In this document: positions 101-16,617 of the stretch, in pieces | Layout of the letters: each line of letters begins with the position of its first letter | How positions within the stretch are numbered: the stretch's first letter is position 1 | Origin: a virus | Strand: one strand, 5' to 3' | Virus record (IMG/VR): IMGVR_UViG_3300048924_000349 | Location: 1-22,338 of that record | DNA length: 22,338 nucleotides | The notes under the pieces: generated by a model | What the model was told of the DNA's origin: nothing | The model's database searches: none | What the model saw: the letters and a program-made list of their open reading frames with translations, nothing else | Translations under genes and position numbers: made by a program

Positions 101-535
101 TCTCGGAATTCTGACGAATCCCGAAACCAGAAAACTCGAAAGTTTCTCTCACGCCATCCAGAAGCTGCCGACGGGATATACACCCCAGCAGGTAAATCAT
201 GGGGATCCGCTGACGACTTAAAGGCCGCTCGCTGGATTTACGACAGGCTTCTCACCGTCAACGCATCGCTTTCCGAACCCAACTGGGCTGAATGGGCAAA
301 TACCATCAGGCTGATGCGTGTCCAGGACAAGCGCACGCACTACGAAATTTGTGACCTGTTCCAGTGGGCCAACCGGGATGAGTTCTGGAAAGACAACATC
401 CTGAGTCCCTCGAGTCTTCGCAAACAGTGGGATCAGCTCACCACCAAACGGATGCGAGCAACCGGAGCGGTAAAACCTTCTCGGGGAGGTATCGACCTGC
501 ATAACACCGACTGGATTGACGGGGTGCTGGAATGA
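2..535 (+). CDS. O: Replication initiator O, C-terminal part (left-truncated by window)
   Basis: This is the C-terminal part of a lambda O-type initiator, which binds origin iterons and recruits P and host DnaB. The frame is open to the left edge, so the true start lies outside; an internal GTG at 20 is unlikely to be the start because the same seven-residue repeat (LPKTGK-like) continues upstream of it. The first ~22 residues are these repeats, encoded by the iterons. The rest matches the pattern of the lambda O C-terminus: an aromatic-rich FQWANRDEFWKDN block, an LSPSSLRKQWDQL block, and a DLHNTDWIDGV tail that in lambda O reads DLTNTDWIYGV. It overlaps the start of P by an ATGA junction, as in lambda. 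The N-terminal DNA-binding domain is not in the window. The family assignment rests on remembered motifs. Confidence 0.88.
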   Translation, partial: FPKSGKVLPKTGKTFPETVDTQDYNKNNIKISSSRNSDESRNQKTRKFLSRHPEAADGIYTPAGKSWGSADDLKAARWIYDRLLTVNASLSEPNWAEWANTIRLMRVQDKRTHYEICDLFQWANRDEFWKDNILSPSSLRKQWDQLTTKRMRATGAVKPSRGGIDLHNTDWIDGVLE

Positions 536-1218
536 AAAACCTTGCCGAAAGCATTCGCAATTTTGACCTGGAACAGGCTCGCCGCGTGGCGCACAACCTG
601 CCTGAGCAGTACACCGAGCGTGAGCAAACTGAACAGGTAGCCAAGATTATCAACGGGCTGTTCGTACAGCTGGCCGCCGCTTTCCCTGCAAGCTTGTTTA
701 ATCGGAGCCAAGACGACGTTGACGAAATCCGCCGCCAGTGGGTGCTGGCATTCAAAGAAAACGGGATCACCACTCTGGAGCAGGTTGAGGCCGGTATGCG
801 CATGGTACGCCGTCAGGAGCGTCCATTCCTGCCTTCGCCTGGCCAGTTCATCAAGTGGTGCAGGGAAGGGCGCTGTGTGCTGGGGATCACCACCGCTGAC
901 GTGATGGCTGAATACTGGAAGTGGCGCAAGCTGGTGTTCCGGTACCCGAGCAGCGAGCAGTATCCCTGGCCAAAGCCTGTTTTTTACCACATCTGTCTGG
1001 AGCTGCGGCGCCGTGGAACAGATGGTCAGTTGAGCCAGAAAGAGCTTGAGCATGAGGCTGGCGATATTCTGGACATGTGGGAAAAGCGGGTGCTGGCCGG
1101 TAAGCCGATTCCGCCTTTACGGCGGGCGTTGGCCGCGCCGGTAGCGCCGAAGGGGCCGACACCGGCAGAGCTTTTGAAAGCCAAATATGAGCGAATGAAG
1201 GCAGATGGAAGAGTGTAA
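532..1218 (+). CDS. P: Replication protein P (DnaB helicase loader)
   Basis: A 228-residue protein that looks like lambda P (233 residues), which delivers host DnaB helicase to the O-origin complex. Seen in the sequence: an N-terminus close to lambda P (MKN start, NFDLEQARRVAHNLPEQY), then QVAKIINGLF, FPASLFNR, EIRRQWVLAFKENGITT and RRQERPFLPSPGQF, all near-identical to lambda P blocks as remembered. The C-terminal half is more diverged but ends in the usual basic helical tail. Its ATG overlaps the O stop, implying translational coupling. The 3' 80-100 bp recur in diverged form at 1653-1780, beyond two small ORFs, which marks a past recombination. Confidence 0.93.
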   Translation: MKNLAESIRNFDLEQARRVAHNLPEQYTEREQTEQVAKIINGLFVQLAAAFPASLFNRSQDDVDEIRRQWVLAFKENGITTLEQVEAGMRMVRRQERPFLPSPGQFIKWCREGRCVLGITTADVMAEYWKWRKLVFRYPSSEQYPWPKPVFYHICLELRRRGTDGQLSQKELEHEAGDILDMWEKRVLAGKPIPPLRRALAAPVAPKGPTPAELLKAKYERMKADGRV

Positions 1219-1396
1219 CTATGCCAGTAAAGATTCTTATGATTCGTACCGCATGGCGAATGAGTTAAAGGCTTTGTCTTCTTTGCGTGTTATAACCGAG
1301 TACAAGCCGCCTCTTCTGGCGACAAAGAGGCATCAGAATGAAATTAAGAATCACAAGAGCAATCGGCCTCAGCAAGTTCTCGCCACGTTGGGTTAA
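1205..1396 (+). CDS. Small hypothetical ORF overlapping the end of P
   Basis: A 63-residue ORF that starts inside the last codons of P (14-bp overlap), with AAGG just upstream of the ATG. The protein is hydrophilic and lysine- and asparagine-rich, with no signal peptide or membrane segment and no motif I recognise. It overlaps the better-supported 1338-1556 ORF in another frame by about 59 bp, so at least one of the two may be spurious. Its position right after P is where lambdoid phages keep variable small early genes. Weak call, based on coupling position only. Confidence 0.3.
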   Translation: MEECNYASKDSYDSYRMANELKALSSLRVITEYKPPLLATKRHQNEIKNHKSNRPQQVLATLG

Positions 1397-1556
1397 GGTT
1401 ATCTGTTTACGGTTGACTAAAAACGATATTGAGCGCTCCCTCAACGCACTGCTGGCCACAATTAATGAATCTGAACTCACCTCTGAGCAAGTCAAAGCAT
1501 TGAGGGAATGCGTTGACAGAATTAACCTAGCAAGGGGGAAGGGGATGAAGGCGTGA
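1338..1556 (+). CDS. Small hypothetical early phage protein
   Basis: A 72-residue ORF with a good ribosome site: AGAGG seven bases before the ATG. The first ~25 residues are basic (five Arg/Lys), and the rest looks like an amphipathic helical segment (LTKNDIERSLNALLATINES onward) with balanced charges, as expected of a real small protein. I do not recognise a family. Its stop overlaps a GTG (GTGAGC at 1553) that would start the next gene, but that frame meets TAA after five codons, so the original downstream neighbour seems lost at the junction. It lies in the early rightward series after P. Confidence 0.55.
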   Translation: MKLRITRAIGLSKFSPRWVKVICLRLTKNDIERSLNALLATINESELTSEQVKALRECVDRINLARGKGMKA

Positions 1557-1570
1557 GCAATTTTGATTAA
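1553..1570 (+). pseudogene. Truncated start of a lost downstream phage gene
   Basis: The stop of the preceding ORF overlaps a GTG start in the GTGA pattern used by coupled phage genes, but the frame reads only MSNFD before TAA at 1568. Immediately after, base composition becomes AT-rich and unlike the flanks. I read this as the first codons of a gene cut off by the rearrangement. It could also be a chance overlap, because five codons are too few to identify. Confidence 0.3.
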
Positions 1571-1642
1571 GCATGTTTCGATGTTGATTTGTTAGAATAG
1601 ATTTTATGCAAAATCAACGGCAAACGTGATGTTGCTACATGC
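1571..1642. repeat. Nested inverted repeats at the cargo junction
   Basis: The outer arms GCATGT (1571-1576) and ACATGC (1637-1642) enclose inner arms GTTGATTT (1583-1590) and AAATCAAC (1611-1618). The 72-bp segment is AT-rich and lies exactly between the truncated phage gene start and the P-gene remnant. It could be a remnant of a small mobile hairpin element or a fold left by an illegitimate join. The arms are short and may be chance. Confidence 0.35.
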
Positions 1643-1652
1643 ATGAGAGAAA

Positions 1653-1780
1653 GGTAGACGATACCGTATATACGCCGCGCGTTGGTTACGCCAGTATCGC
1701 CGAAGGGGCCGACACCAGCGGAGTTGCTTAAAGCCAAATCAGAGAGAATGAAGTCTAAGATGTATGGTATAGAGCGATAA
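1653..1780 (+). pseudogene. Remnant duplicate of the 3' end of gene P
   Basis: From 1671 to 1753 the DNA aligns without gaps to 1118-1200 in the intact P gene: 83 columns with about 16 differences by hand count, roughly 81% identity. Weaker similarity extends left to about 1653 with a one-base gap. The same reading frame is kept and translates as IRRALVTPVSPKGPTPAELL followed by KAKSERMK, against LRRALAAPVAPKGPTPAELL in P, then ends at TAA 1778-1780. An in-frame TAG at 1655 cuts it from anything upstream, so it is a remnant and not a gene. The divergence level suggests a P gene of a different phage, brought in with the fimbrial block, and not a fresh duplication. Confidence 0.85.
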
Positions 1781-1793
1781 TGTTTGAATGCAA

Positions 1794-2645
1794 TTAGGGG
1801 CATGTCCACGACACACTTACTGTGGCTGATTTTTCACCTGGCTGCGATGATGGTAATAAGTTTAATCCAAAAGTGAGAGGTGGTGTGAACTGCATGCTTG
1901 TATTGACTATCTCATCATTTACAGTCAGTTGTGTCGATTCTGTAATAGAGCTGTTTTGTATTTTAATAGGGATGTTGTTTGTGTTTTTTGTATAGGATAT
2001 CGTTTCATTCATATTATTTTTTTGATCAATGGATAATGGCCCCAAATTAATCGCATTAGGTATAACGATGTGATCTTGAATTAGACTTAAAGCGTTAAGC
2101 ACTCTCGTGGCAGTTGGTTTCATATCTGATACTTGGATGTTATTGGAAGTGATTAGCGCGGAAACATTAATAATATTTTCACCTTGTGGCATTGTTATGC
2201 TTTCGTCGATTTTTGCTACCTTAGACGAATAGTACTCTGATGTTAGAACAATATTGGTGGTTGAGTTTTTAATATTACACTTACCGTCAACGCTTTCATT
2301 ACACGGTATGGTTACGCTAAAAGTATTAACTCCTGCTGGAATCGGAGTGCTAGAGTAAGAATAGGCATCTCCACCTGAAAATGAATGATGTATGCGTACA
2401 TAATTCCCGGCCAGCGCGGTACTTGTCAATGCATTTGGAAAATCAAGCGTTATGTGAAAGTTTTTGAATTTTGGAGAGCCTAATGCAATTCCGGAAGGTT
2501 TAAGCTCCACCAACAGGCTTGAAGATTCCCCATCAGGTAAACGGATGCGATCACGCAAACCCCAAGGTTTCATTTGCTCACATTGCAAAACCGCTGCTTC
2601 AGTCGAGGCCGTAATAAAAATCAATACTGCGAGTGTTTTTTTCAT
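1794..2645 (-). CDS. Putative fimbrial tip adhesin / distal minor subunit
   Basis: A 283-residue secreted protein at the distal end of the fimbrial series, where FimH-like adhesins normally sit. The start is taken at 2645 because it gives a short signal peptide (MKKTLAVLIFITASTEA, cleavage near residue 17-19); the frame opens further to 2714 but that extension is not signal-like. The length is about twice a pilin domain, fitting an N-terminal receptor-binding domain plus a C-terminal pilin-like domain. The N-terminal half has a cysteine pair (CNESVDGKC). The last residues form an alternating strand (TVSVSW) as needed for donor-strand complementation but end in TCP, unlike classical subunits. 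I see no clear FimH signature. The gene is AT-rich and separated from the minor pilin by 120 bp. The role is inferred from position, export signal and size. Confidence 0.7.
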   Translation of the reverse strand: MKKTLAVLIFITASTEAAVLQCEQMKPWGLRDRIRLPDGESSSLLVELKPSGIALGSPKFKNFHITLDFPNALTSTALAGNYVRIHHSFSGGDAYSYSSTPIPAGVNTFSVTIPCNESVDGKCNIKNSTTNIVLTSEYYSSKVAKIDESITMPQGENIINVSALITSNNIQVSDMKPTATRVLNALSLIQDHIVIPNAINLGPLSIDQKNNMNETISYTKNTNNIPIKIQNSSITESTQLTVNDEIVNTSMQFTPPLTFGLNLLPSSQPGEKSATVSVSWTCP

Positions 2646-2674
2646 ATAAATATCGTCAATTTTAACTATTATCT

Positions 2675-2693
2675 TATCAATTAAGAATTGATA
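2675..2693. repeat. Short palindrome between minor pilin and adhesin genes
   Basis: TATCAATT (2675-2682) and AATTGATA (2686-2693) form a perfect 8-bp stem with a 3-base loop, 30 bp upstream of the adhesin start. A second palindrome, GGACATGTCC, lies at 2703-2712. They may modulate read-through from the pilin operon into the adhesin gene. AT-rich palindromes of this size are common, so this is only noted. Confidence 0.35.
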
Positions 2694-2765
2694 GTGCTTT
2701 ATGGACATGTCCAACTAGCATTAATCATTGTTATAAAATATAGAGTTAGAACCTTTTAATGGCTT

Positions 2766-3299
2766 TTAGCTGTAATCTATCGAAAATGTGACTAAAGACT
2801 GAAAGGAACCACCCGTTACACGCCCAGAGCCTGTTGCAGCATAACCTGCTGAGAATTTATGTGTACCACTGGACTGCTCATAATTGATTGTTACCTTCTT
2901 TTTACCATCAGGAATAAGTATATTTCCGTTTGCGTCAAGTAGTCTAAGTCCAACATTTTTGGCAGAACTGGTATTTTGGAATAGGGTGCTGTCACCGTTT
3001 GTAACAGCCGTTCCTGAGGGGGTGATATTCACAGTCTTTACACCACCACTACAATTCATTTTCAATGTGAAATCAGTTATTCCTTGTATTGCATTGCTGT
3101 TGTTTAAACTGCTTGTATCAACTTCAGGAAGATCTACTGAAAAAGAAGTCTCATTAAAGGAACAAGTTTTCGCTTCCAGGACTCCGGTAATAGTAAATTG
3201 TGTAGATGTAATGTTGGCTGCATGTAAGTGTGAGTTCAGTATGGGCATTCCAAAAGCCATTCCGAAAATAACACTTTTCAGCGCGTAATTAAGCTTCAT
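2766..3299 (-). CDS. Minor fimbrial subunit (FimF/FimG-like pilin)
   Basis: A 177-residue exported pilin-domain protein. The start at 3299 is chosen over an upstream frame extension because it has AAGGA seven bases before the ATG and gives a normal signal peptide (basic MKLNYALKS, hydrophobic core, cleavage near LHA-AN at residues 27-28). The mature protein has the usual pilin pattern: a donor strand near TSTQFTITGVLEAKTC, a disulfide pair at C46 and C83, a glycine-rich GSGRVTGGSF turn, and a terminal beta strand with penultimate tyrosine (FSIDYS). Such subunits link the rod to the adhesin. It starts 25 bp after the usher stop, so it is co-transcribed. It is clearly different from the major pilin at 6739-7254. 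Confidence 0.9.
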   Translation of the reverse strand: MKLNYALKSVIFGMAFGMPILNSHLHAANITSTQFTITGVLEAKTCSFNETSFSVDLPEVDTSSLNNSNAIQGITDFTLKMNCSGGVKTVNITPSGTAVTNGDSTLFQNTSSAKNVGLRLLDANGNILIPDGKKKVTINYEQSSGTHKFSAGYAATGSGRVTGGSFQSLVTFSIDYS

Positions 3300-3324
3300 G
3301 TTTATTTCCTTGTTAGCAGTTTGA

Positions 3325-5925
3325 TCAAAGACAGACTGAGTTGATTTGGGCAATAGTAGCAACCTGATCTTTGTCACTGATACGGTAATTAATCACGCAA
3401 TGTTGATGCTGTTGTTCACCCCATTTTGCTGTTAAGGAGCCTTCATTCTGAAGACCAGACAAATATACTTGTCCACCATCGCCTACAATTCCGCTGACTT
3501 TATCGCTACTTACAATAGTACCAAATGGAAGTGGTTTACCGTTGCGAGTAAGGTTCATTATGGCGCGGTGACCACGCTGTACGTCAAAACTTGCCCGAAC
3601 AATTGCCCCTTTTGTCGGTACGACTCGCGCCACACCGCTGTCAATTTCAGTTTTGTCATCGAGCGTACTGGTATCCAAAGAAATGCTATTTTCGCGATAG
3701 GCAGTGGCATAAGGCTTGATAGCATATCCGCGCCAATCAGTTGTGACACCAGTTGCACCTTTAACGTCTGCACCGCTGGCCCCCGGTGCAGCAATTAGCA
3801 CTGCACTTTCCATCACTTGCTGGCCCTGAGTCAGACCATTTCGGTGCGCTATAAGGGCACCACTTAAGCCGTAGTTCACGCGCTGGTAATCATCGCTATA
3901 ACTGTATCCTAGTGACGAGTTGCCATAACCGCCGCGATGGTTTAATCCAGCGTTTCCGGTACCGCCGCGGCTGCTACCATTTCTGCTGTGACTATATCCT
4001 TGTGAAACATTCCAGTTAAGGGTATTGCCTTCCAGAGCCGTACCGCTTAATCCTGCTTGCTGACTCAGGTTGCCATGATTATCCCTGCTGCCATAAAACG
4101 TAGCGTGGACAGATCGTGATTCTTTTTTCCATGAAAATAGCTGATCTAGTGGAACCGACAGCGACAGGTTGAAAATCTTGTCTGTCCATGACGGATTGCC
4201 TTCATTCTTCTGCTTATTAAAGCTGTAAGAAAGTGAGTAGTTAACGGGCCCCAAGGTACTGCTATAGCCACTTTGTAGCGATGTATTAGAGCTACCGGAA
4301 TTCCAGTAGGTCTGCTTAACACCGGTGATGTAAAGAGAACCCGCGGTACCAAGACTCTGCGAGATATTAGCTTCCAACCTGGCTCGTTTGGTGTTGTAAA
4401 GATTGTAGTAGTCGGAGTAGGTGTCCTGAATACGGTTACCATATTCATCGTACTCATCGTGATCGTATAAACGCCCACTCATGGTTTTCAGCGCTGTTTC
4501 ATCAAGGGTATGGAAACCCTTCGTCGAATATCGATATCCTGTCAGACGGAGATTCGTACCCGTAGGATTAAATGAATGCGCATAGAGGAATCTGACCGAT
4601 TGCCCTTTGTGGCTCGAACCATCTGCCAGAGTACTATCCGCATGCGTTACGTCTGCAGATAATGCTCCGATTGAACCCATGTTAATGCCCAGCCCCAATT
4701 GCTCGGCCAGGTATTTCTCAGAATACTGTGCTCCACCATATATGGTTACGTTGTGCGGAAGTCCCCATAAAAGAGTGGCCTCACCAAAAGCAGGATCCTC
4801 GTAACGGTCGCTATTACCCGTAAAGCGGCCTGCAGTCATGCTGTATGTCATCCTTCCTTCACGCTGTAGTAACGGAACAGAGGAATAGGGCACAGTAAAC
4901 ACGTGAGTATTACCGTTGGCCTCTTTTACACTCACCTCCAGATCGCCACTGCTATACATTGGGTAGAGATCTGTTATCTCGAATGCACCTGGAGAAACGT
5001 TCGTCTGGTAAATGCTATAACCATTCTGGCGAACCAGTACCTGTGCGTTGCTTTCAGCTACGCCGCGGATCACCGGGGCGAATCCCCTCATGGTATCCGG
5101 ATACATGTTGTCATTTGTAGACAGGCTGATGCCTTTGAAACCCAGCGAGTCAAAAATCTGATTTGATGTCGAACTCTCACCAATCACCAGATTGCTGCGC
5201 AAGGGGATGACCGATCGTTCAACATAAGTCTTCATGCGTTGCCATGAATGCTGGGTTTGGTATTTGTTGCTGTAGTAACTCCAGGTTCGAAAATCACGCA
5301 GTCGCCAGGCTCCAAGATTGATGCCGCTATTCAGGTTAAGGAAGTAATTATCACTGTCCGATTTGCCGGCAAAGGTGTTGCCACCGCTGAAGTTATAATT
5401 TAGTAAAGCGGCATTAATACCTTCATCCCAGAGAGAAGGGTCAATATATCCGCGCGCCTGATTATGTAATGAAGCCTGCGGAATGCTGATAAAAAGCTGC
5501 ATTTTAGTGAAATCAAAGCGAGTAAATGCATCCGGGATGACTTTCTCCGGTGTTACGCATTCAGTCTCTCCAAGAGAAGTGATCTTCGTAAAGAGAGCTA
5601 CTTTCACCCCCAATGAAGCCAGCATTTCCCGTGTTAGGCATACTGAGAGCCCTGTATTATCTCTACTGCGCTGCTGTTCAGTTTGTTCTTCTCGTTTTTT
5701 AAACGTTAGCGTTTGTTGACCCAGGCTTCTTTCATTCAAAAAAACCTCAACCAGATATTCTCCAGGCCGCTGTGAGCCAGAAGCCTGGAAAATACTCAGA
5801 TCGGCAGCTGCATCAGCATCCGCCCCCAAAAATTCTGGCGGGAAATAGAGCCCTGCGGCATTAGCGGCGAAACCGGCCTGAATAAATAAACCAGTCAGGG
5901 CTATCGATAAAGTAGACTTCTTCAT
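3325..5925 (-). CDS. Outer-membrane fimbrial usher, FimD class
   Basis: An 866-residue usher that translocates and assembles pilin subunits at the outer membrane. The signal peptide runs about 1-23 (MKKSTLSIALTGLFIQAGFA). The mature N-terminus has the YFPPEFL motif, followed by blocks remembered from FimD: CLTREMLASLGV, ARGYIDPSLWDEGINA, LNYNFSGGNTF, LNLNSGINLGAWRLRD, RGFAPVIRGVA, QNGYSIYQTNVSPGAFEI (plug region), FTVPYSSVPLLQREG, a long repeat-rich barrel, TDWRGYAIKPYATAYREN, and a CTD with GNGKPLPFG-like and GQVYLSG motifs. The final cysteines (HCVINY, SVCL) are conserved. All domains are present and uninterrupted, so it looks functional. A GTG at 6009 would extend it by 28 residues into the chaperone gene; I prefer 5925 because it gives a clean signal peptide, though its ribosome site is weak. 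Confidence 0.96.
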   Translation of the reverse strand: MKKSTLSIALTGLFIQAGFAANAAGLYFPPEFLGADADAAADLSIFQASGSQRPGEYLVEVFLNERSLGQQTLTFKKREEQTEQQRSRDNTGLSVCLTREMLASLGVKVALFTKITSLGETECVTPEKVIPDAFTRFDFTKMQLFISIPQASLHNQARGYIDPSLWDEGINAALLNYNFSGGNTFAGKSDSDNYFLNLNSGINLGAWRLRDFRTWSYYSNKYQTQHSWQRMKTYVERSVIPLRSNLVIGESSTSNQIFDSLGFKGISLSTNDNMYPDTMRGFAPVIRGVAESNAQVLVRQNGYSIYQTNVSPGAFEITDLYPMYSSGDLEVSVKEANGNTHVFTVPYSSVPLLQREGRMTYSMTAGRFTGNSDRYEDPAFGEATLLWGLPHNVTIYGGAQYSEKYLAEQLGLGINMGSIGALSADVTHADSTLADGSSHKGQSVRFLYAHSFNPTGTNLRLTGYRYSTKGFHTLDETALKTMSGRLYDHDEYDEYGNRIQDTYSDYYNLYNTKRARLEANISQSLGTAGSLYITGVKQTYWNSGSSNTSLQSGYSSTLGPVNYSLSYSFNKQKNEGNPSWTDKIFNLSLSVPLDQLFSWKKESRSVHATFYGSRDNHGNLSQQAGLSGTALEGNTLNWNVSQGYSHSRNGSSRGGTGNAGLNHRGGYGNSSLGYSYSDDYQRVNYGLSGALIAHRNGLTQGQQVMESAVLIAAPGASGADVKGATGVTTDWRGYAIKPYATAYRENSISLDTSTLDDKTEIDSGVARVVPTKGAIVRASFDVQRGHRAIMNLTRNGKPLPFGTIVSSDKVSGIVGDGGQVYLSGLQNEGSLTAKWGEQQHQHCVINYRISDKDQVATIAQINSVCL

Positions 5926-5974
5926 AATATTAACCAGAGGCAGAACTATTAGAGGAACAATTGCGCTAAGCACC

Positions 5975-6670
5975 TTACAGATTTTGCTTTTGCTGAGCAG
6001 AAACCGCACCGTAGTCGTTTATTGTGCTGTAGGTCAGCGTACGAGGACTTCCTGATGCCAACAGGGATTCAGTACTAAATGGTGCCACCATCGTGTCAGC
6101 AACCTTGCGACCATCGAGTGCGACCTGGACCATAGTTATGTGATAGGGAGAAGGATTGCTAATTTGCACCTGGTTCCCGCTCCGTTTAAAGGTCAGCATC
6201 GATGGTGCCTTTTCGACAGGAACATTGAGACCAGAGGGGCGTACAAACATTTTGATGCGCGTAACAGCAGCGAGCATAAGTGTGTTTTTCCCTTCCATCT
6301 TTGATTTGTCTACTGACGGAATTGCCTTCGCGTTGAAGTAGTACAAAGTTTCTCTGTCCTGTGGCAGGGAAGGACCACCGAAAATTACGCGCAACATATT
6401 CTGGTCGCCTGGGTTACTTACATATAGCGGAGGAGTAATAATAAAGTCAGTGGATTTATTGCCCTGCGCATTCTCCGTCCAACTTTGTACAAGATAGCTG
6501 GTCTCTTGCGAAGAATTACGAACAGACAAAGTGGCCTGCTTGGCATCCATAGGATATATAAGGCGTGTTCCACCCAAGACAATACCTCCCGCCGAGGCCA
6601 AATGGGGGAAAAACATTACTATGCATAATATTGAAGCGAGTAGCTGTTTTTGAAAGGAATAATAAAACAT
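5975..6670 (-). CDS. Periplasmic fimbrial chaperone, FimC class
   Basis: A 231-residue two-domain PapD/FimC-type chaperone that caps pilin subunits in the periplasm and delivers them to the usher. The ATG at 6670 has GGAG six bases upstream; a TTG four codons earlier is less likely. The signal peptide ends near LASA-GG (residues 26-28). The conserved subunit-binding arginine is in GTRLIYP (R36, near mature residue 8-9) and the conserved lysine in TRIKMFVRP. Chaperone landmarks NPGDQNMLRVIF, ETLYYFNAKAIP and the NPSPYHITM block are present. It ends about 50 bp before the preferred usher start, consistent with one transcript. No missing key residues. Confidence 0.96.
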   Translation of the reverse strand: MFYYSFQKQLLASILCIVMFFPHLASAGGIVLGGTRLIYPMDAKQATLSVRNSSQETSYLVQSWTENAQGNKSTDFIITPPLYVSNPGDQNMLRVIFGGPSLPQDRETLYYFNAKAIPSVDKSKMEGKNTLMLAAVTRIKMFVRPSGLNVPVEKAPSMLTFKRSGNQVQISNPSPYHITMVQVALDGRKVADTMVAPFSTESLLASGSPRTLTYSTINDYGAVSAQQKQNL

Positions 6671-6738
6671 ATGATTCTCCAAAATTGATCATGAAAAGGG
6701 TAGCACCCCATTTGATAGGGGTGCCGCGGGCTGAGGAA

Positions 6739-7254
6739 TTAGTTGTATTTCACGGTAAAATCTACAGTTGAATTGGCCAACCCGACTGCCACATTGTTAT
6801 CCAGAGCTATATAGCGCGCCGTGAAATCGAATTCATTAGGATTAGTTGAACTAACGTTGATGGACTGTGCGTGTGTAGAACCATCAACGACCACTGGGGT
6901 ATTTTGATCCAAAATTTGGATGCCAACACCTGAAGCCGTTGTTTTCAGTGCATTGTTAATACTTGGTGGGGTCTCACCTTTGAAAGTGATGGTAGCATTG
7001 GCGGTATCACACTGATCAAGTGCAATTGTGAAGCCAACCGGTTGAGAATAGTTTCCTTGATTTGCAAGTACACTTTTCTCGATATCACCTAATACAACTG
7101 TTTGTCCTTTAGACCCATTATTGATTACACAAGTGTTTTCTTTAATTGAACCGTTAAATACAACCGAACTGGTTTCACCTTCATTAGCTGCGAATGTGTA
7201 CGCAGAAGCCATAACCATGGCAGTAATAGTTGCAACAGAGAAAATCGTTTTCAT
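6739..7254 (-). CDS. Major fimbrial subunit (type 1-like pilin)
   Basis: A 171-residue pilin, first structural gene of the leftward operon. The start at 7254 has AAGGAT nine bases upstream and gives a typical signal peptide (MKTIFSVATITAMVMASAYT, cleavage near FAA-NE at 23-24); the frame's upstream extension to 7383 lacks signal features. The mature protein carries the FimA-type pattern: VVFNGSIKENTCVI donor-strand region, disulfide C42-C82, SVDFTVKYN-like ending (TVDFTVKYN) with penultimate tyrosine, and the mid-protein Gly/Ala/Thr-rich strands. It should polymerise into the rod. A 68-bp gap leads to the chaperone gene. Its leader contains a strong stem-loop and two copies of a repeated 8-bp motif. 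Confidence 0.94.
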   Translation of the reverse strand: MKTIFSVATITAMVMASAYTFAANEGETSSVVFNGSIKENTCVINNGSKGQTVVLGDIEKSVLANQGNYSQPVGFTIALDQCDTANATITFKGETPPSINNALKTTASGVGIQILDQNTPVVVDGSTHAQSINVSSTNPNEFDFTARYIALDNNVAVGLANSTVDFTVKYN

Positions 7255-7389
7255 AGATATATCCTTAGTTTCAAAAATATTAATTCTGCATTGAGAATTA
7301 ATAGGGTGAAATGCACTACGGGCAGTGAATGAGACATACTGCTCGCAATGACTTTTATTTGCATAGTGAATGCGTGAGCACAAAAATAA
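7255..7389 (-). promoter_or_regulatory. Leader/control region of the fimbrial structural operon
   Basis: This 135-bp AT-rich region lies between the LuxR-like regulator gene and the major pilin gene. It contains two direct copies of AGTGAATG (7324-7331 and 7365-7372) and, nearer the pilin start, a perfect 10-bp inverted repeat. I could not place a convincing -35/-10 pair for the leftward direction. No pair of recombinase-type inverted repeats bounds it, so a fim-type phase switch is not visible. An operator role for the repeats is inferred. Confidence 0.5.
7278..7303 (-). repeat. Perfect 10-bp stem-loop in the pilin mRNA leader
   Basis: TATTAATTCT (7278-7287) and AGAATTAATA (7294-7303) pair perfectly around a 6-base loop, 23 bp before the pilin ATG and outside its ribosome site. 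It could be an operator dyad or a 5' hairpin that stabilises the mRNA. There is no T-run after it in the transcribed direction, so it is not an ordinary terminator. Confidence 0.55.
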
Positions 7390-7917
7390 CTATAAATAAT
7401 TAATCTCGCTAGCAACAAACGTTCTTACTTCATTCAAATGCCTCAAGTTTAATTTTCTAGCTATGATCGCTATGCGAGTGTAAATTGTTTTGTTATTGAC
7501 ATTGGCTAGTTTCGCAACGCTTGATACATCTGTATGTTGAGCTACTGACCAAGCGATTTCTTTATCTTTTCTGGATAGTACTGATAGTTCCGACATCATA
7601 ATTAAGTGTTGCTTTAAATCTGACCAGTCAATAGGCTGTCCATTTTTCAGCAAGTGTATAATGTCAATCAAGTTGTCATCACGTCCGAATGTTGCTAATG
7701 GGCTTAACACTTTTGAATGAACATTAATTCCTTTTAAAATATATATGTACTGGTTGGCTTTGAGTTCGATACCATCTATTTCATCCAGTATTTCTGAAAG
7801 AGATGTAAAGGAGTCAATGTCAACAATGCAAGCATGCGTTTTAGGAAGGATTTCCCTCAGCAAATGAATGAATGCAATTTTGATATAGTTGTTCTTTGTA
7901 AAAATTCTGTGTCGCAT
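7390..7917 (-). CDS. LuxR-type HTH transcriptional regulator
   Basis: A 175-residue protein with a C-terminal LuxR/FixJ-type helix-turn-helix at about residues 110-168: a LSRKDKEIAWSVAQ helix, then DVSSVAKLANVNNKTIYTRI recognition region and ARKLNLRHLNEVRTF. The N-terminal ~100 residues alternate strands and helices (ACIVDIDSF, YIYILKGINV) like a receiver fold, but I do not see the phospho-acceptor and lysine pattern with confidence, so it is probably an atypical or degenerate receiver, as in fimbrial regulators such as FimW. It sits between the EAL gene and the major pilin gene in the same direction. Its ribosome site is weak. It most likely controls this operon; activator versus repressor cannot be told. 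Confidence 0.8.
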   Translation of the reverse strand: MRHRIFTKNNYIKIAFIHLLREILPKTHACIVDIDSFTSLSEILDEIDGIELKANQYIYILKGINVHSKVLSPLATFGRDDNLIDIIHLLKNGQPIDWSDLKQHLIMMSELSVLSRKDKEIAWSVAQHTDVSSVAKLANVNNKTIYTRIAIIARKLNLRHLNEVRTFVASEINYL

Positions 7918-7978
7918 TTAAAGACTAAAACCCATTAATGAGAATCTATTGTGAATTTTGCATATTCTCAATTTTTTG

Positions 7979-8779
7979 TTAAAGATACTTAATGGCAAAG
8001 TGTTCAATACATACTGGACGAGAGAATAAAAATCCCTGACAAGTGAGAACACCTTTCTCTTTAAGCAGTTGATATTGTTCTTCGGTCTCCACTCCTTCAG
8101 CAATAAGCTGCATACCGAGACTCTTAGATAGCAATAAGATTGCATCGAGCACGGTTGAGTAAACCAAAGAGCCATTGCTGATGACAGTAAGACATCTGTC
8201 TATTTTTATTGTGGAAAACCCAGCATGTTCAATGTATTTGAGACATGAACTTCCACTTCCAAAGTCATCAATAGCAAAACGCACGCCTGACGCAGTCAGT
8301 TGTTGCATAGATTCAAGAGCAAAATCATCGAAATCCATGGTTCCGCGTTCCACGATTTCCAGCACTACAGCTATACGGCCTTCAAATGTTTCATTAAAAT
8401 CTGTGACCGCTTCAATTACTCTAGGTGCGTTCAGTTGCCTTGCACAAATATTAAAAGAAAGATAGAAGTCGTTTGGTAAAGCTCCTCTATATCCTTCAAA
8501 AAAGCTTTTAACCCCGGACAGTAGCGCACATGTCACATCATTAATGATCTCACAGGACTCCATGGCAGATAAGTATTTTTCTGGAGAGTAAAGAACGCCA
8601 TCTTTAAGAACTCTCAGTAATACCTCTCCACCAACAATCACGTCATCCTTGTACACCGGCTGAACATAAGGCACAAATTCAGCACCGTTTAGTTCCGCTG
8701 ATAAGATCGTTTCTCTAATCAATGTGCGTGCTTTGATGAATAAACGTTCTGCCTTCATGAGCATTTTGGTGCTTATCAT
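7979..8779 (-). CDS. EAL-domain cyclic-di-GMP phosphodiesterase
   Basis: A 266-residue stand-alone EAL domain protein predicted to hydrolyse c-di-GMP to pGpG in the cytoplasm. GGAG seven bases before the ATG supports the start at 8779. Catalytic-site residues appear complete: E52 in the EVLLR version of the EAL motif, N110 (SFNICARQL), E141 (EIVER), D171-D172 (DDFGSGSS), K192 (KID), E228 (AEGVE) and Q248 (QGFLFSRP). No GGDEF, PAS or membrane segment is visible; about 30 helical residues precede the domain. It is the first gene of the leftward series, 61 bp before the LuxR-like gene. EAL proteins such as FimK and MrkJ are known neighbours of fimbrial operons. Enzyme activity is inferred from motif completeness. 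Confidence 0.93.
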   Translation of the reverse strand: MISTKMLMKAERLFIKARTLIRETILSAELNGAEFVPYVQPVYKDDVIVGGEVLLRVLKDGVLYSPEKYLSAMESCEIINDVTCALLSGVKSFFEGYRGALPNDFYLSFNICARQLNAPRVIEAVTDFNETFEGRIAVVLEIVERGTMDFDDFALESMQQLTASGVRFAIDDFGSGSSCLKYIEHAGFSTIKIDRCLTVISNGSLVYSTVLDAILLLSKSLGMQLIAEGVETEEQYQLLKEKGVLTCQGFLFSRPVCIEHFAIKYL

Positions 8780-9121
8780 TCTTTCGCTCCTTATCTACAA
8801 GATTCGCTACCCGGGATATCGCTTCTTTCCCCGGACTGTGAATGGCGGTAGGGCGGATGACTGCTCCTGGAGATTAAGAACCTGCTCATTCACTTCTGCG
8901 AATAATCCTATCAACCAAAAACGTAATGCAGGTATATGTATCGTGAGTTTGTTAAATTACAAATCAATGTTCTAATAATTCATCCATTTACAAGCAATAT
9001 GACTGCAAAAACTGCTGCTGTGCCTGGCTGTGCTAGGATGAGACTAAGAATTTGATGGGTTTCCGTAAGTTGCAGAAACGAGAGATACCATTCAGTTACC
9101 ATCATGGATAAGGAGTCAGAG
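8780..9121. promoter_or_regulatory. Divergent control region between EAL gene and ToxR-like gene
   Basis: This 342-bp gene-free region separates the leftward fimbrial series from the rightward regulator pair, so it should hold promoters for both. It contains GTGAATG (8838-8844) and its inverted copy CATTCAC (8887-8893), 42 bp apart. The 10-mer AGTGAATGAG, read on the minus strand at 8885-8894, is identical to 7324-7333 in the pilin leader. The right part (8935-8990) is very AT-rich. I could not fix exact promoters. Confidence 0.55.
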
Positions 9122-9931
9122 ATGGTTTTCGTGATTGATAATAGGGTTTACTATCGCTCGGAAGATGGTGCTATATGGCCATCCGGAGACGAGGGCTCTA
9201 CTGTCATTCTGACCCTGACAATGAACAGACTTCTTGCATGTCTTCTGGAAAAGCATGGTCAGGTTCTGACGCGAAATGAACTTCTGTATAGCGTATGGGA
9301 TGCTCATGGTCTCCGTTCTTCTAGTCACACGCTAAACAAATACATCTCCGAACTTAGAAAGCATTTCGTACAGTTTGGGATTGTCGAGGAGTGTATTACT
9401 ACCGTGCCTCGCGTTGGTTTTATGTTTAATAGTGAAGTCGAGGTAAGGGTTCTGACTCAATCCACTATTGAGCATGAGTCTCGGTTGGAAGATGGAAACA
9501 ATGAAGCGAAAGTAGTAAAAGAAAGCTCGCCCGTGCGAGTTAAATATAGAAAATTACCTATCTCTCTGGCATTGGCAACCGTTTTAATAAGCGCGTTCTT
9601 GATTACGTTAGGGCTTAGGGTTCCATCAAAAGATTTGGCTCAGGTAAGAGAATTGAAGACTTATTTTCTCTTTAACTATGGGTCGTGCCCTGTATACACT
9701 GTACAAAGAAACTCCGCATCGCTTTCTGAACAAAAAAAAGACTTGTTCATCGAGTTGGCAAAGGCCAATGGAATTGACTGTCTGGACGGAACCTCATTCT
9801 TGTATCAGGTTTCTGAGTCATATCTTTATGGCAACAAGGGACGAGCTTTCATCAGTCGGTGTACTTCAAGAAACGATAAATACATCTCCTGTCTGAATAA
9901 CTATTGGAATGGTTATGAACGCACTCACTAA
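9122..9931 (+). CDS. ToxR-like membrane-bound winged-helix regulator (MarT/YqeI type)
   Basis: A 269-residue one-component regulator. The ATG at 9122 is chosen because AAGGAG lies six bases upstream; the frame also has an ATG at 9104 that would place this site inside the gene. Residues 1-105 form an OmpR/ToxR-type winged helix (LTLTMNRLLACLLEKHGQVL, RNELLYSVWD, SSSHTLNKYISELRKHF, TTVPRVGFMF wing). A charged linker follows, then one membrane segment at about 145-166 and a periplasmic domain of about 100 residues with four cysteines (C189, C220, C247, C257) that could form disulfides. The length equals that remembered for E. coli YqeI, and the next gene is FidL-like, the arrangement known for marT-fidL and yqeI-yqeJ. 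It probably regulates the divergent fimbrial genes; this is inferred from position. Confidence 0.88.
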   Translation: MVFVIDNRVYYRSEDGAIWPSGDEGSTVILTLTMNRLLACLLEKHGQVLTRNELLYSVWDAHGLRSSSHTLNKYISELRKHFVQFGIVEECITTVPRVGFMFNSEVEVRVLTQSTIEHESRLEDGNNEAKVVKESSPVRVKYRKLPISLALATVLISAFLITLGLRVPSKDLAQVRELKTYFLFNYGSCPVYTVQRNSASLSEQKKDLFIELAKANGIDCLDGTSFLYQVSESYLYGNKGRAFISRCTSRNDKYISCLNNYWNGYERTH

Positions 9932-10406
9932 AAAAACAGGGTTGATTGCTATACTTCTACTCACAGTTCTTGCGTTATCTGTTTGGTTCTATGTGCACAA
10001 ACGGCAGAATCAAAACTATCTGAAAGTTAACTGCTCAACGATTTTACGCTATAACCATCAAGAGCCAGATTTCGTTGCGACGTTGGACATGGTTTTTCGT
10101 TTAGATGAAAACCATGACGGACAAGCTGTCTTGTCAGGAAATATTCGCTCTGAAACAGGGGCGCAAGTTATATCTCGAACAATTTTGTTTAATTATGAAA
10201 TGGACAGGCCTGGTGAGATCTCCATTATGGATACGCGTTACGTAAAAACTCACCGCGACACCGCTGATGAAGAGAGCTTCAAAAACAGCTTCTTTTATGT
10301 CCCGGATGGAACGGCTCGCCAGCTGAGAGTTGAGCCTTCCAGTAATGGTTGGTTGATAGGAAACTTACAGTCGCCATTTGCTCTGTGCGTGAACAGAGAA
10401 GGTTAA
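9909..10406 (+). CDS. FidL-like inner-membrane protein
   Basis: A 165-residue protein whose start overlaps the end of the ToxR-like gene by 23 bp, so the pair is co-translated. An ATG two codons downstream (9915) is an equally possible start. One N-terminal membrane segment (about residues 11-28, LIAILLLTVLALSVWFY) anchors a periplasmic domain of about 130 residues with two cysteines (C42 and C160) and a SPFALCVN ending. This layout and the conserved-looking blocks (VLSGNIRSETG, DGTARQLRVEPSSNGWLIG) resemble the FidL-like family encoded next to MarT/YqeI-type regulators. The role is probably to modulate its partner, by analogy with ToxS, but that is inference. Confidence 0.82.
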   Translation: MVMNALTKKTGLIAILLLTVLALSVWFYVHKRQNQNYLKVNCSTILRYNHQEPDFVATLDMVFRLDENHDGQAVLSGNIRSETGAQVISRTILFNYEMDRPGEISIMDTRYVKTHRDTADEESFKNSFFYVPDGTARQLRVEPSSNGWLIGNLQSPFALCVNREG

Positions 10407-10417
10407 AACATTTCATT

Positions 10418-10450
10418 TCTGCTGCGGGTAGATTCCACGCCCGCAGCAGA
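10418..10450. terminator. Perfect 11-bp palindrome after the FidL-like gene (terminator-like)
   Basis: TCTGCTGCGGG (10418-10428) pairs perfectly with CCCGCAGCAGA (10440-10450) around an 11-base loop, starting 12 bp after the FidL-like stop. It is GC-rich and stable, but no T-run follows on the plus strand, so it is not a classic intrinsic terminator. It may shield the mRNA end, or mark the right edge of the cargo block. Confidence 0.5.
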
Positions 10451-10590
10451 GCCACACACAATTCTGATTTTCGCCCCGATTTCCAATCCTCAAAAACCTT
10501 AAGCTCCATTATGTCCACGGTAAGATGCTGTCTGTAGTTTGTCAGGCGGTTTCGTCATCATGGTGTTTTGGGTTGGGTGCCCTTAAAGCG
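10451..10590. other. Gene-free segment at the right cargo boundary
   Basis: No convincing gene is seen here on either strand. The segment lies between the palindrome after the regulator pair and the SOS promoter of the dinI-like gene. The change from cargo to phage sequence must lie within it, but no target-site duplication or integrase core can be recognised. Confidence 0.4.
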
Positions 10591-10641
10591 TTGCAAAATC
10601 CGCGAGATATGTTTATAAATATACTGTATATACATACAGTA
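10591..10641 (+). promoter_or_regulatory. SOS promoter with LexA box for the dinI-like gene
   Basis: A -35 TTGCAA (10591-10596) and a -10 TATAAA (10614-10619) are spaced by 17 bp. Immediately downstream, 10622-10641 reads TACTGTATATACATACAGTA, which fits the LexA consensus CTG-N10-CAG and has symmetric TA flanks. LexA bound here would cover the start site. GGAGGG precedes the ATG at 10661. Confidence 0.92.
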
Positions 10642-10660
10642 ATTCATTGCGGAGGGAAAA

Positions 10661-10885
10661 ATGAAAATCGAGCTAACCATTGATCGCATGAAGAAACTTC
10701 CTGATGGAGCTATACCTGCGCTCGAGTCAGAACTGCTCAAAAGACTCAGCAAACAGTTTGATGACTGCCAGCTAACGATCAAGCGTGCCGGTAATGATGG
10801 TTTGACTGTTTTTGGGGGCGATAAGAAAGAGATTGAGCATATCGTGCAGGAGACCTGGGAAAGCGCGGACGAGTGGTTTTATTAA
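10661..10885 (+). CDS. DinI-like SOS protein
   Basis: A 74-residue member of the DinI family, small proteins that bind RecA and modulate its filament and coprotease activity. The pattern matches DinI along its length: MKIELTI start, a LPDGAIPALESELLKRL helix, the LTVFGG strand, and the diagnostic acidic C-terminal helix ending QETWESADEWFY (DinI has QETWESADDWF). It has its own LexA-controlled promoter and a strong GGAGGG ribosome site. In lambdoid prophages such genes couple phage behaviour to DNA damage. It is the first identifiable phage gene right of the fimbrial block. Confidence 0.92.
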   Translation: MKIELTIDRMKKLPDGAIPALESELLKRLSKQFDDCQLTIKRAGNDGLTVFGGDKKEIEHIVQETWESADEWFY

Positions 10886-10991
10886 TCGCGTGAATTTTAC
10901 TGGAGCAGTTTCAAAGAGTATCGCTGTTTGCGTTCCCCTGGCTGTTCCCGATTACTGTTTACCGCGTCAATAAGTCGCTCTGGGGGAAATA

Positions 10992-11234
10992 GTGTGTAGT
11001 GCAGATGCCTTTAATGCAGATGATCAATGGTACGACGTGGTCAGAAGGGCCGATAACGCAGTTATCTATAGCTTCCCGGCGGAAGGGAGATATCTGGTTT
11101 ATCGAGTAAATGGAATAGTTTCATTACGACCGTTACTCGAAGAGGAAGAAATCTTCACTTTCAACGGGTTTATGCAATTTGCAAAACGACTGGGGTACCG
11201 AGTAACACCACCGTCTGATATTATTCTTTCATAG
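10992..11234 (+). CDS. Small hypothetical phage protein
   Basis: An 80-residue ORF starting with GTG, preceded by GGGGG five bases upstream. It is acidic, soluble and compact, with alternating strands (AVIYSFPAEGRYLVYRVNGIV) and a C-terminal helix (FNGFMQFAKRLGYRV). No family is recognised. It stands between the dinI-like gene and the DUF1367 gene, where lambdoid phages carry variable nin-type genes, and runs in the same direction. Confidence 0.7.
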   Translation: MCSADAFNADDQWYDVVRRADNAVIYSFPAEGRYLVYRVNGIVSLRPLLEEEEIFTFNGFMQFAKRLGYRVTPPSDIILS

Positions 11235-11273
11235 GCCTGAACAACCTATACCTGATGCGCCACGGAGAGAACC

Positions 11274-11876
11274 ATGGCGCTAGAATTACAACTTATCAAA
11301 CACCATTCAGGAATACTGATCCCGGCAACGCCCGAGACCAGGGATATCCTTCAATCCAAAACCCGGCTCGGCGATGTTCTTGTTGCCGAGTTCAGGCGGG
11401 TACGAAATCCGGCATTCCACCGGCGCTTTTTCGCGCTTCTCAATCTCGGTTTTGAATACTGGGAACCAACCGGCGGGGCTATCTCTAGCAACGAGCGGAA
11501 GCTGATCACCGGCTACGCAAAATTCCTGGCTTCATATGGCGGGAACGAGGGGGCTCTGATCGATGCTGCTGAACAGTACCTGGAACAGGTTGCTTATCGG
11601 CGCGTCACGAATGGCATTAGCCTGTGCAAATCCTTCGATGCTTACCGCTCTTGGGTAATCGTCGAGGCAGGGCACTTTGATGCCATTCAGCTACCAGACG
11701 GCACACTCAAAAAACATCCACGTAGCATCTCATTCGCCAACATGGACGAGCTCGAGTTTCAGCAACTCTATAAGGCCGCGCTCGATGTTCTTTGGCGCTG
11801 GGTCCTGTCCCGTTCATTCCGCAGTCGTGATGAGGCAGAAAATGTCGCCGCTCAGCTGCTTGGCTTTGCGGGGTGA
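11274..11876 (+). CDS. DUF1367 family phage protein
   Basis: A 200-residue protein of the DUF1367 type, common in the nin region of enterobacterial lambdoid phages and of unknown function. The recognisable block is FRRVRNPAFHRRFFALLNLGFEYWEP, interrupted in other members only by small changes, and the N-terminus (IKHHSGILIPATPETRD) also fits. GGAGAGAACC precedes the ATG. The stop overlaps the next gene in a TGATG arrangement. It is basic and aromatic-rich with no membrane segment. DNA-related function is only a guess from context. Confidence 0.88.
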   Translation: MALELQLIKHHSGILIPATPETRDILQSKTRLGDVLVAEFRRVRNPAFHRRFFALLNLGFEYWEPTGGAISSNERKLITGYAKFLASYGGNEGALIDAAEQYLEQVAYRRVTNGISLCKSFDAYRSWVIVEAGHFDAIQLPDGTLKKHPRSISFANMDELEFQQLYKAALDVLWRWVLSRSFRSRDEAENVAAQLLGFAG

Positions 11877-12082
11877 TGGGGATGAAACATTCTTGGTTCC
11901 ACCACACCGATTGCAGCACCGAACAGGCCGACGAGCTGGTTAAACGTTACAAAGCGCGCGGCGTCCGGGTTGAGCGTAGTCTAAACCAGGATTACGTGAC
12001 CTGGACTGTCAGTGCATTCCTTCCAACCTCAAATACACCAGCGCGCCCGGATAGCCGCTGGCGAAACCGGACGTGGGGGTGA
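11876..12082 (+). CDS. Small conserved-looking phage protein between DUF1367 gene and rusA
   Basis: A 68-residue ORF coupled to the DUF1367 gene: its ATG at 11876 overlaps the upstream TGA. Another in-frame ATG at 11882 (after GGGG) and a GTG at 11873 are alternatives. The protein has a histidine-rich start ([10 protein letters not shown]), a helix with paired charges ([20 protein letters not shown]) and a strand ([10 protein letters not shown]), then a basic tail. No function recognised. It overlaps the rusA start region, in keeping with tightly packed phage early genes. Confidence 0.75.
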
Positions 12083-12084
12083 GC

Positions 12085-12447
12085 GTGAAGACGTATCAAA
12101 TCACTTTGCCCTGGCCGCCGAGCAATAACAGGTATTACCGCCACAACCGCGGGCGTACGCATATTAGTGCTGATGGCGTCGCGTACCGCTATGCCGTGGC
12201 CAGTGTCATTCGAAGCGTCCGGCTAAATATCCGAACGGCTGCACCACTCAAAATCCGAATTGAATGTCATATGCCCGACCGCCGGCGCCGCGATCTGGAT
12301 AACCTGCAGAAAGCTGCATTCGACGCTTTAACCAAGGCGGGATTCTGGCTGGATGACTGCCAGGTTGTCGACTATCGCGTTGTGAAAAAGCCTGTCGTTA
12401 AGGGCGGGAAATTAGAACTCACCATTACCGAGCTGGAGACCGCATGA
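12085..12447 (+). CDS. rusA: Holliday junction resolvase RusA
   Basis: A 120-residue RusA-type endonuclease that resolves Holliday junctions and branched replication intermediates. The GTG at 12085 gives exactly the RusA length and the usual [21 protein letters not shown]-terminus, with GGGGG upstream; GTGs at 12073 and 12079 are alternatives. The catalytic aspartates fall at the known positions D70 and D72 ([15 protein letters not shown]) and D91 (WLDDCQVVD). Basic residues surround them. Its stop overlaps the start of the antiterminator gene (ATGA). Looks intact. Confidence 0.95.
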
Positions 12448-15497: not shown

Positions 15498-15540
15498 GCA
15501 TGACAGCAGGCATTCATTGAGTGCCTGCTGTCATGCTTTT
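15498..15540. terminator. Perfect 15-bp terminator hairpin
   Basis: GCATGACAGCAGGCA (15498-15512) pairs perfectly with TGCCTGCTGTCATGC (15522-15536) around a 9-base loop, followed by TTTT on the plus strand. It should end rightward transcription after the lysis genes unless antiterminated, and insulates the following moron-like gene. Confidence 0.85.
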
Positions 15541-15575: not shown

Positions 15576-16103
15576 ATGGATTCAAACTCAATTTCTTTGG
15601 CTACAATGCTTATTGCAAAAGAGGCTTCAAACTGGGCATTTTGGACTATGATAGCAAGTGCTGTAAGTGCTATTGCAGCCATAGGTACAATTGTTGTTGC
15701 TATGTGTGCTTTGAGTTCATGGCATAAGCAGGAGGCACTGAAAGTTCGAGTAAATTTCAAGCATGCAATACTCGATCTTAAAGATGCGTTAAAGGCAATG
15801 CCGAAGAAATGGTCCTATCCACAGATTAATACTGCTCGAATTTTGATAAATACCTACCCGGATATGTCTCATCGTACCCATGATGCGACACGTATTTACT
15901 TTCAAAAAAATGATCTTATCTCAGCTTATGAGCAAGCTGTGAAATGTTGGATTATGTGTGATGGTCTCTTCGAAAATAAGGATGTAAATGTCTTTTGGAA
16001 AACATTTTCAGACCAATATAAAATCTATGTAAAGGCTGGTGGAGAGAGGGAGGGAATGGAATCTCTTCTTGATGAAATTGCCAAAAACTTAAAACTATTT
16101 TAA
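15576..16103 (+). CDS. Hypothetical membrane-anchored protein (moron-like)
   Basis: A 175-residue protein with GAGG upstream of its ATG. A hydrophobic stretch covers about residues 20-47 (WAFWTMIASAVSAIAAIGTI continuing to VVAMCAL), predicted as one membrane segment, followed by a cytoplasmic helical domain with several tryptophans and basic residues (HKQEALKVRVNFKHAILDLK). No family recognised. It is AT-richer than the lysis and packaging genes, is preceded by a strong terminator and followed by an opposite-strand gene, so it is likely an independently expressed accessory gene. It could be an exclusion or defence protein, but nothing in the sequence proves this. Confidence 0.75.
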   Translation: MDSNSISLATMLIAKEASNWAFWTMIASAVSAIAAIGTIVVAMCALSSWHKQEALKVRVNFKHAILDLKDALKAMPKKWSYPQINTARILINTYPDMSHRTHDATRIYFQKNDLISAYEQAVKCWIMCDGLFENKDVNVFWKTFSDQYKIYVKAGGEREGMESLLDEIAKNLKLF

Positions 16104-16197: not shown

Positions 16198-16617
16198 CTA
16201 CTCATCTATGAGATGTTCTACTTCCTCTACTACAATCTCAAACCAACTCGGCTGTGATACTTGGCTCGGCTCACCATTGGCATACTCGGTGTGAATTGGC
16301 AGGTAAGGTCCAACATGTATCGCAGGATAAGAATTACAAGCCTTATTGTTAAACTGATCCAGCGTTATATCTAAGCACTGCCCATCTATATCTACCCAAG
16401 CATGTGAGTCAACAAGACCGTTACAGCCTTTGTCAAAACTCACAACCTTAGCTCTACAACCAATCCGGCGGTTAATAATTTCAGCCAAAATAAGCGCGCT
16501 ATCAGAACAACATCCGAGTGGAAAATTGTTAAAAGGAATGTCGGGTAATGATACAGGCGATCTCTTTTGAAGGTGATCTCTCACCTGTTCTGCCAATACT
16601 AAAAATTTATTATCCAT
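16198..16617 (-). CDS. Transglutaminase-like Cys-His-Asp protein (moron)
   Basis: A 139-residue soluble protein, antisense to the late operon just before the terminase genes. It shows the papain/transglutaminase-like triad in order: Cys36 or Cys37 in FPLGCCSDSALILAEII, His72 in VDSHAWVDIDGQ, and Asp83 in CLDITLDQF. The GCC-D-A, SHAW and DIT-DQF blocks recur in a known group of bacterial hypothetical proteins. There is no signal peptide. The start at 16617 lacks a good ribosome site, so expression may be low or the start may differ. Substrate and role are unknown: a protease, transglutaminase or acyltransferase-like activity are all possible. Opposite orientation and AT-rich sequence suggest expression from the prophage. 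Confidence 0.8.
   Translation of the reverse strand: MDNKFLVLAEQVRDHLQKRSPVSLPDIPFNNFPLGCCSDSALILAEIINRRIGCRAKVVSFDKGCNGLVDSHAWVDIDGQCLDITLDQFNNKACNSYPAIHVGPYLPIHTEYANGEPSQVSQPSWFEIVVEEVEHLIDE

Follow-up and report, generated by a model that had tools for sequence, protein, structure and literature searches.

How does a complete set of genes for a bacterial adhesion organelle come to lie among the genes of a phage? Phages are known to bring bacteria toxins, effectors and defence genes; the vehicles usually named for whole adhesion organelles are plasmids and islands. We approached this question through IMG/VR record IMGVR_UViG_3300048924_000349, a stand-alone linear fragment of 22,338 bp (hereafter the window), in which a chaperone-usher fimbrial operon lies between a lambda-type P gene and dinI. 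An earlier note on this DNA had read the operon and its neighbours as lysogenic-conversion cargo. Our analysis supports that reading and adds three things the note had overlooked: the interval is a hotspot, other adhesins occupy it in relatives, and two of the regulators fit a co-component class. We consider it highly probable that the block is exchangeable lysogenic-conversion cargo, encoding a complete chaperone-usher fimbria, in a P-dinI hotspot of a lambdoid phage family. Such cargo in a phage hotspot is of a known kind, and it is the adhesin that is unusual. If this reading is right, temperate phages are a direct route for Enterobacter strains to gain surface adhesins, and infection could supply a bacterium with new means of sticking in one step.

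The fimbrial operon and its phage backbone

All nine open reading frames (ORFs) of the block are open and full length, and their Pfam domains confirmed the earlier claim of an intact chaperone-usher operon accompanied by four regulatory or signalling genes between P and dinI. The operon is of the gamma1 chaperone-usher type and intact, with pilin, chaperone, usher, minor subunit and putative tip, all on the minus strand. The major pilin gene (6739..7383; PF00419, 2e-19) likely starts at an internal ATG ahead of the signal peptide. It is followed by a gene for a two-domain, PapD-type periplasmic pilus chaperone (5975..6682; PF00345 PapD_N and PF02753 PapD_C; FimC-like, 254 bits) and one for an outer-membrane usher of 894 residues (3325..6009), whose N-terminal, barrel and C-terminal domains are all present and span residues 55–878 (PF13954 PapC_N, 5e-42; PF00577 Usher, 3e-189; PF13953 PapC_C, 9e-23). 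The E-value of 3e-189 rules out a chance match; against the closest NCBIfam fimbrial usher model the protein scored 991 bits, with a cut-off of 995. Next comes a FimG-like minor fimbrial subunit (2766..3377; PF00419, 8.6e-20), which matched the FimG model at 1e-14, below that model's cut-off. The last gene (1794..2645, with the ORF running to 2714) encodes a putative tip adhesin of 283 residues counted from an ATG before a signal-like sequence. Its position in the operon and pilin-like C-terminus agree with the distal adhesin candidate proposed earlier, although it has no recognizable domain and is not recognizable as FimH.

The operon shares usher, chaperone and pilin domains and the order of assembly genes with type 1-like (gamma1) fimbriae such as Fim and Lpf. 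Unlike them, the block has no fimBE-type invertase gene and carries a co-component pair instead. We found no convincing fimS-like phase-variation switch around the pilin promoter, where seven inverted-repeat pairs, mostly imperfect, were detected, and promoter- and terminator-like matches in the block did not exceed those in shuffled sequence.

The phage genes on both sides are in normal order, as the earlier note had stated and as family matches left and right confirmed, and all those visible in the window are open. On the left, a lambda O-like gene, cut by the contig end, precedes a complete gene for a lambda P-like helicase loader (532..1218, plus strand; PF06992, 3e-48; phrog_109, 1e-79). 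On the right the order is DinI, NinB/DUF1367, RusA, Q, lysozyme, terL and portal; the right anchor (10584..10885, plus strand) comprises dinI itself (10661-10885; NCBIfam DinI, 7e-21) and a conserved upstream region with the LexA-box-like sequence CTGTATATACATACAG. As is typical of moron-type cargo, the block is interior to the phage gene order, gives way to other cargo in relatives that share this backbone, and deviates in base composition, with a guanine-plus-cytosine (GC) fraction of 0.35-0.48 in the cargo and about 0.54 in the backbone.

To assign a host, we used the dinI anchor. Of 61 Enterobacter species genomes, 11 have it at an identity of at least 91% and one more at 79%; of 5426 E. 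coli genomes, just one has it. Strong matches (E <= 1e-150) occurred in three of 392 family-wide genomes, all three of which are also within the Enterobacter set. Because the anchor is frequent in Enterobacter and nearly absent from E. coli, the host is most likely Enterobacter.

Alternative cargo in the P-dinI interval

Relatives retain P as far as about position 1211 of the window and become homologous again at about 10580; most of the intervening DNA is unrelated. We gathered such slots through P and NinB searches and from genome loci, E. coli 210205630 and phage PHB10. The 72 non-identical P-dinI slots fell into 42 alleles, counts that rest on the best 80 matches per search and a 60% mutual-coverage rule, and measured 2.1-10.0 kb (median 4.9 kb); at 9.4 kb the slot of the window is long yet inside this range. 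E. coli 210205630 has the same backbone (91-94% identity in three blocks) and other cargo. The record of Escherichia phage PHB10 (MK524177.1) measures 57.2 kb, and its genes stand in a circular permutation of the order of an integrated prophage. Its backbone is 92% identical over 45% of the window; the phage likewise has a long slot, of 10.0 kb, but one that holds LysR, amidohydrolase and reductase genes and no adhesin. The P-dinI interval is thus a cargo hotspot in a family of lambdoid phages known to date chiefly from Enterobacter. The earlier suggestion that a block of about 8.7 kb would strain packaging found no support: since PHB10 holds 10.0 kb at this position, there is no need to invoke a larger capsid, the loss of other genes to compensate, or a defective phage.

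Other alleles carry defence cargo (Dsr1, PD-Lambda-4, ThsB/TIR and DarTG proteins) or metabolic and transport cargo (alkylsulfatase, MFS and HlyD-type transporters, BLUF-EAL, glyoxalase and amidohydrolase genes). The arrangement resembles the hotspots of P2 phages and P4 satellites, which hold many alternative accessory loci including defence systems (PMC9122126), in that fixed phage genes flank a variable slot; it differs in phage family, in position and in carrying adhesin organelles. The commonest allele (L052 13926-15107, L054 1956-3137, L059 1919-3100) pairs a glyoxalase-like gene with one for a BLUF-EAL blue-light protein and thus gives the slot a further means of bringing genes for cyclic di-GMP (c-di-GMP). 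Two slots (L055 4642-8190 and that of L060) encode large proteins without a family match, for example one of 1182 residues beside TIR/ThsB-like proteins, which may be undescribed defence components.

Adhesin loci account for three of the 42 alleles; they are of three types, each with a ToxR/ToxS-like pair. In L075 and L077 the slot encodes an AIDA-type autotransporter of 1202 residues, an Aah/TibC heptosyltransferase (601 bits, cut-off 200) and a LuxR-like protein, together with an EAL protein, a winged-helix protein and its partner that adjoin dinI and are 75, 68 and 62% identical to those of the window. Beside dinI, the fimbrial and AIDA phages carry EAL and sensor modules that are related. 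A third contig, L089, shows the start of this AIDA locus after P. The slot of L110 holds a CS1-type system with a CS1 pilin, TcfC/CooC usher domains, a TcfA-like chaperone and two large tip-like proteins; its winged-helix and partner proteins are more distant from those of the window (31% and 20%). We think the chances about even that the slot is an adhesin-conversion platform, in which phages swap whole unrelated adhesin systems (gamma1, CS1-type, or AIDA with heptosyltransferase) that bring ToxR/ToxS-like sensor pairs. On this proposal a phage would give its lysogen a sensed, switchable surface organelle. The P-to-dinI interval would also be a simple anchor for surveys of adhesin cargo.

The gene order of the AIDA slot (LuxR-like, AIDA at 82%, heptosyltransferase at 94%, EAL, winged-helix, partner) was also seen in L179 (2404-10457), where P and dinI are undetectable; this locus is a possible chromosomal donor or a former prophage.

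A counterpart in Enterobacter cloacae and the rival explanations

On the chromosome of Enterobacter cloacae DSM 26481 (NZ_CP056117.1, near 3,687,668), a P 3' end and dinI enclose the same nine genes in unchanged order. There the block is in a prophage remnant at dcp, adjoining dcp-, ydfG- and rspR-like genes; E. coli 210205630, too, has its prophage at the dcp site. Decay of the E. cloacae prophage shows in an integrase ORF beside the P fragment and a disrupted DUF1367 gene, whereas all fimbrial ORFs are open. Because this chromosome shows the same arrangement, the P-dinI placement is found in two independent sequences, and this recurrence, with the other cargo of relatives, supports the operon as interior cargo of a lambdoid phage.

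The two copies differ unevenly. Identity is 94.5% for the usher and 89-95% for the regulators, compared with only 52% for the major pilin, 62% for the minor subunit and 35% for the tip. The ratio of nonsynonymous to synonymous substitution rates (dN/dS) is 0.11-0.32 for usher, chaperone and regulators, low values which argue that the genes are under selection to be kept. Since pilins and tip are 35-62% identical compared with about 95% for the usher, the sequences suggest that exposed pilus parts change fastest, which fits exposed subunits that are exchanged or fast-changing on a stable assembly machine. Close relatives elsewhere were not found: a single-sequence usher search of viral contigs gave none, phage and plasmid records held no usher at 60% identity or above, and the ushers found outside E. 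cloacae were at most 55% identical to that of the window. A usher profile gave three matches in viral contigs; two (L062, L064) are host fim-type clusters beside an integrase, and L063 matches likewise.

The borders of the block bear on whether the window is one molecule. The earlier note had placed the cargo correctly between P and dinI but drawn it too short; the slot is really 1212-10583, and its left part also holds an accessory gene and a second P 3' end. The former belongs to a phage accessory element (1287..1570, plus strand) with a 72-residue gene (1338-1556, phrog_34901), present at varying positions in the slots of many relatives; this 0.28-kb element could serve as an internal recombination anchor. 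Adjoining the tip gene, the 3' end of P is present a second time in degenerate form (1656..1753, plus strand; 78.6% identical to 1103-1200). This copy is likely a recombination scar, perhaps formed when a phage with its own O-P recombined with one that bore the fimbria and the end of the older P stayed in place.

We then weighed whether the window could be a chimeric assembly, a host fimbrial contig joined to a phage contig. It is a single unsupported viral record, and GC falls at both borders of the block. However, the E. cloacae chromosome matches the window without a break over 7119-12106 (92.4%), from the fimbrial block through the regulators into dinI and NinB, which leaves no assembly join at about 10.5 kb, one of two positions the earlier note had flagged. 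At the other, about 1.6 kb, a join is largely contradicted by the E. cloacae tip gene, which ends 28 bp from the end of the P fragment, although the left side of the window is more complex; the accessory element found there is slot-typical in many relatives. A chimera is therefore very improbable. We give even less credence to a prophage that integrated beside a chromosomal fim cluster. That situation does occur: a fim-type cluster (FimZ-, FimY/W- and EAL-like genes) is located outside the integrase in L062 and L064, and contigs like these can mimic prophage-borne fimbriae. In Salmonella, 22 chaperone-usher ushers have been assigned to prophage regions, all but one of these prophages being incomplete or questionable (PMC9238391), and such border effects may account for part of these FimD-in-prophage counts. 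The operon of the window resembles these cases in being a fimbria assigned to a prophage. It differs in being interior, between the replication and lysis genes of a continuous backbone; in relatives this position is about 10 kb away from the integrase and is filled by other cargo.

Unlikely, but to be taken more seriously, is that the operon entered a defective chromosomal prophage and is now kept by the host without phage movement. Several observations weigh against mobile cargo and in favour of such a grounded operon or of caution. The sole close relative lies in a degraded prophage that has lost phage genes and kept the operon intact; the literature links chaperone-usher fimbriae almost always to incomplete prophages (PMC9238391); none of the isolated phages in the collection carries the operon; and the window has no integrase, cI repressor, attachment sites or tail genes in its span. 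The tip protein (1794-2714) gave no Pfam match and no PDB sequence match, and its AlphaFold model is poor (predicted local distance difference test, pLDDT, 39.5). Expression in the lysogen, the signal, regulation, adhesion and transfer by particles are steps that we infer. Against grounding stand the open state of every phage gene visible in the window, a slot length within the range of relatives, phage PHB10 included, and the AIDA counterpart L075, whose 49.9-kb record includes genes for integrase and portal and a tape-measure frame that is open over 1021 codons; integrase, portal and tape-measure genes are thus present in relatives. The cargo might also serve the phage itself, its pili or an altered surface excluding or capturing other phages, as the known defence systems in several slot alleles might suggest. 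The full assembly line and a sensor pair found elsewhere beside adhesin genes point instead to an ordinary adhesin function, and we regard a phage-serving role as improbable. Exchangeable lysogenic-conversion cargo remains our preferred reading. In the open-licence literature we found no description of the P-dinI slot, of a lambdoid phage with this fimbria, or of interior adhesin loci of several kinds.

Regulators beside the operon and a proposed mechanism

Two overlapping genes next to dinI would encode the sensor. The upstream gene (9104..9931, plus strand) specifies a predicted membrane-bound winged-helix transcription factor, ToxR/PsaE/VtrA-like (PF00486 Trans_reg_C, 1e-13), with homologues in adhesin loci. 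It overlaps by 23 bp the gene for a membrane-anchored lipocalin-like partner, ToxS/VtrC-like (9909..10406, plus strand). The partner gave no family match by sequence. Its AlphaFold model (pLDDT 78) has one membrane helix (2-35) and an eight-strand barrel, and the top five structural matches of this predicted fold were all ToxS or VtrC entries (Z 10.0-11.2; VtrC 11.2, ToxS 11.0), with the next unrelated match at Z 7.8. Conserved cysteines lie near both ends of its periplasmic part. Because of the gene overlap, the winged helix, the conserved cysteines and a partner fold that matches VtrC/ToxS, the pair as modelled fits the description of ToxR/ToxS-VtrA/VtrC co-component systems (PMC9214523) and would act in sensing and transcriptional control. 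It shares a membrane winged-helix factor, an overlapping downstream gene, a lipocalin-like partner and the partner cysteines with ToxR/ToxS, VtrA/VtrC and PsaE/PsaF (PMC9214523, PMC6657601, PMC8407435), and differs in being phage-borne and in a sequence similarity of 4-9% in structural alignment. In Yersinia, PsaE/PsaF regulate fimbriae (PMC6657601, PMC8407435).

Of 392 family genomes, 102 gave relatives of the winged-helix protein in a profile search (E <= 1e-25), and a usher or AIDA gene was also present in eight of the ten relative loci that we read. In a tree, the winged-helix protein of the window clusters with that of the AIDA phage, apart from chromosomal relatives, with support of 94/93, just under the starred support level, and long branches make the deep part unsure.

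Two further regulatory genes lie on the minus strand. One (7390..7917) encodes a LuxR/GerE-like DNA-binding regulator with a weak GerE match (0.0095) and a 32% identical homologue in the AIDA phage that itself matches GerE at 7e-4; we found no relative in viral contigs and one weak match in plasmids. The other (7979..8779) encodes an EAL-domain protein, a predicted c-di-GMP phosphodiesterase (PF00563, 8e-42).

We propose that the fimbrial genes, which are opposed to phage early transcription, would be expressed from their own promoters in the lysogen. The winged-helix factor and its partner would sense a periplasmic signal and switch the adhesin genes, and the LuxR-like protein and the EAL protein, by lowering c-di-GMP, may tune the switch. 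Chaperone and usher would build pili that end in the tip protein. Cargo could be exchanged by homologous recombination between phages, with O-P and dinI-ninB-rusA-Q as the flanking stretches of homology.

Farther along the window, a 39-bp near-perfect palindrome (15498-15536), possibly a terminator, lies between the lysis genes and the next ORF. Two small low-GC genes (15576-16103 and 16198-16617) follow between the lysis and terminase genes, in a stretch not common to the E. coli 210205630 prophage.

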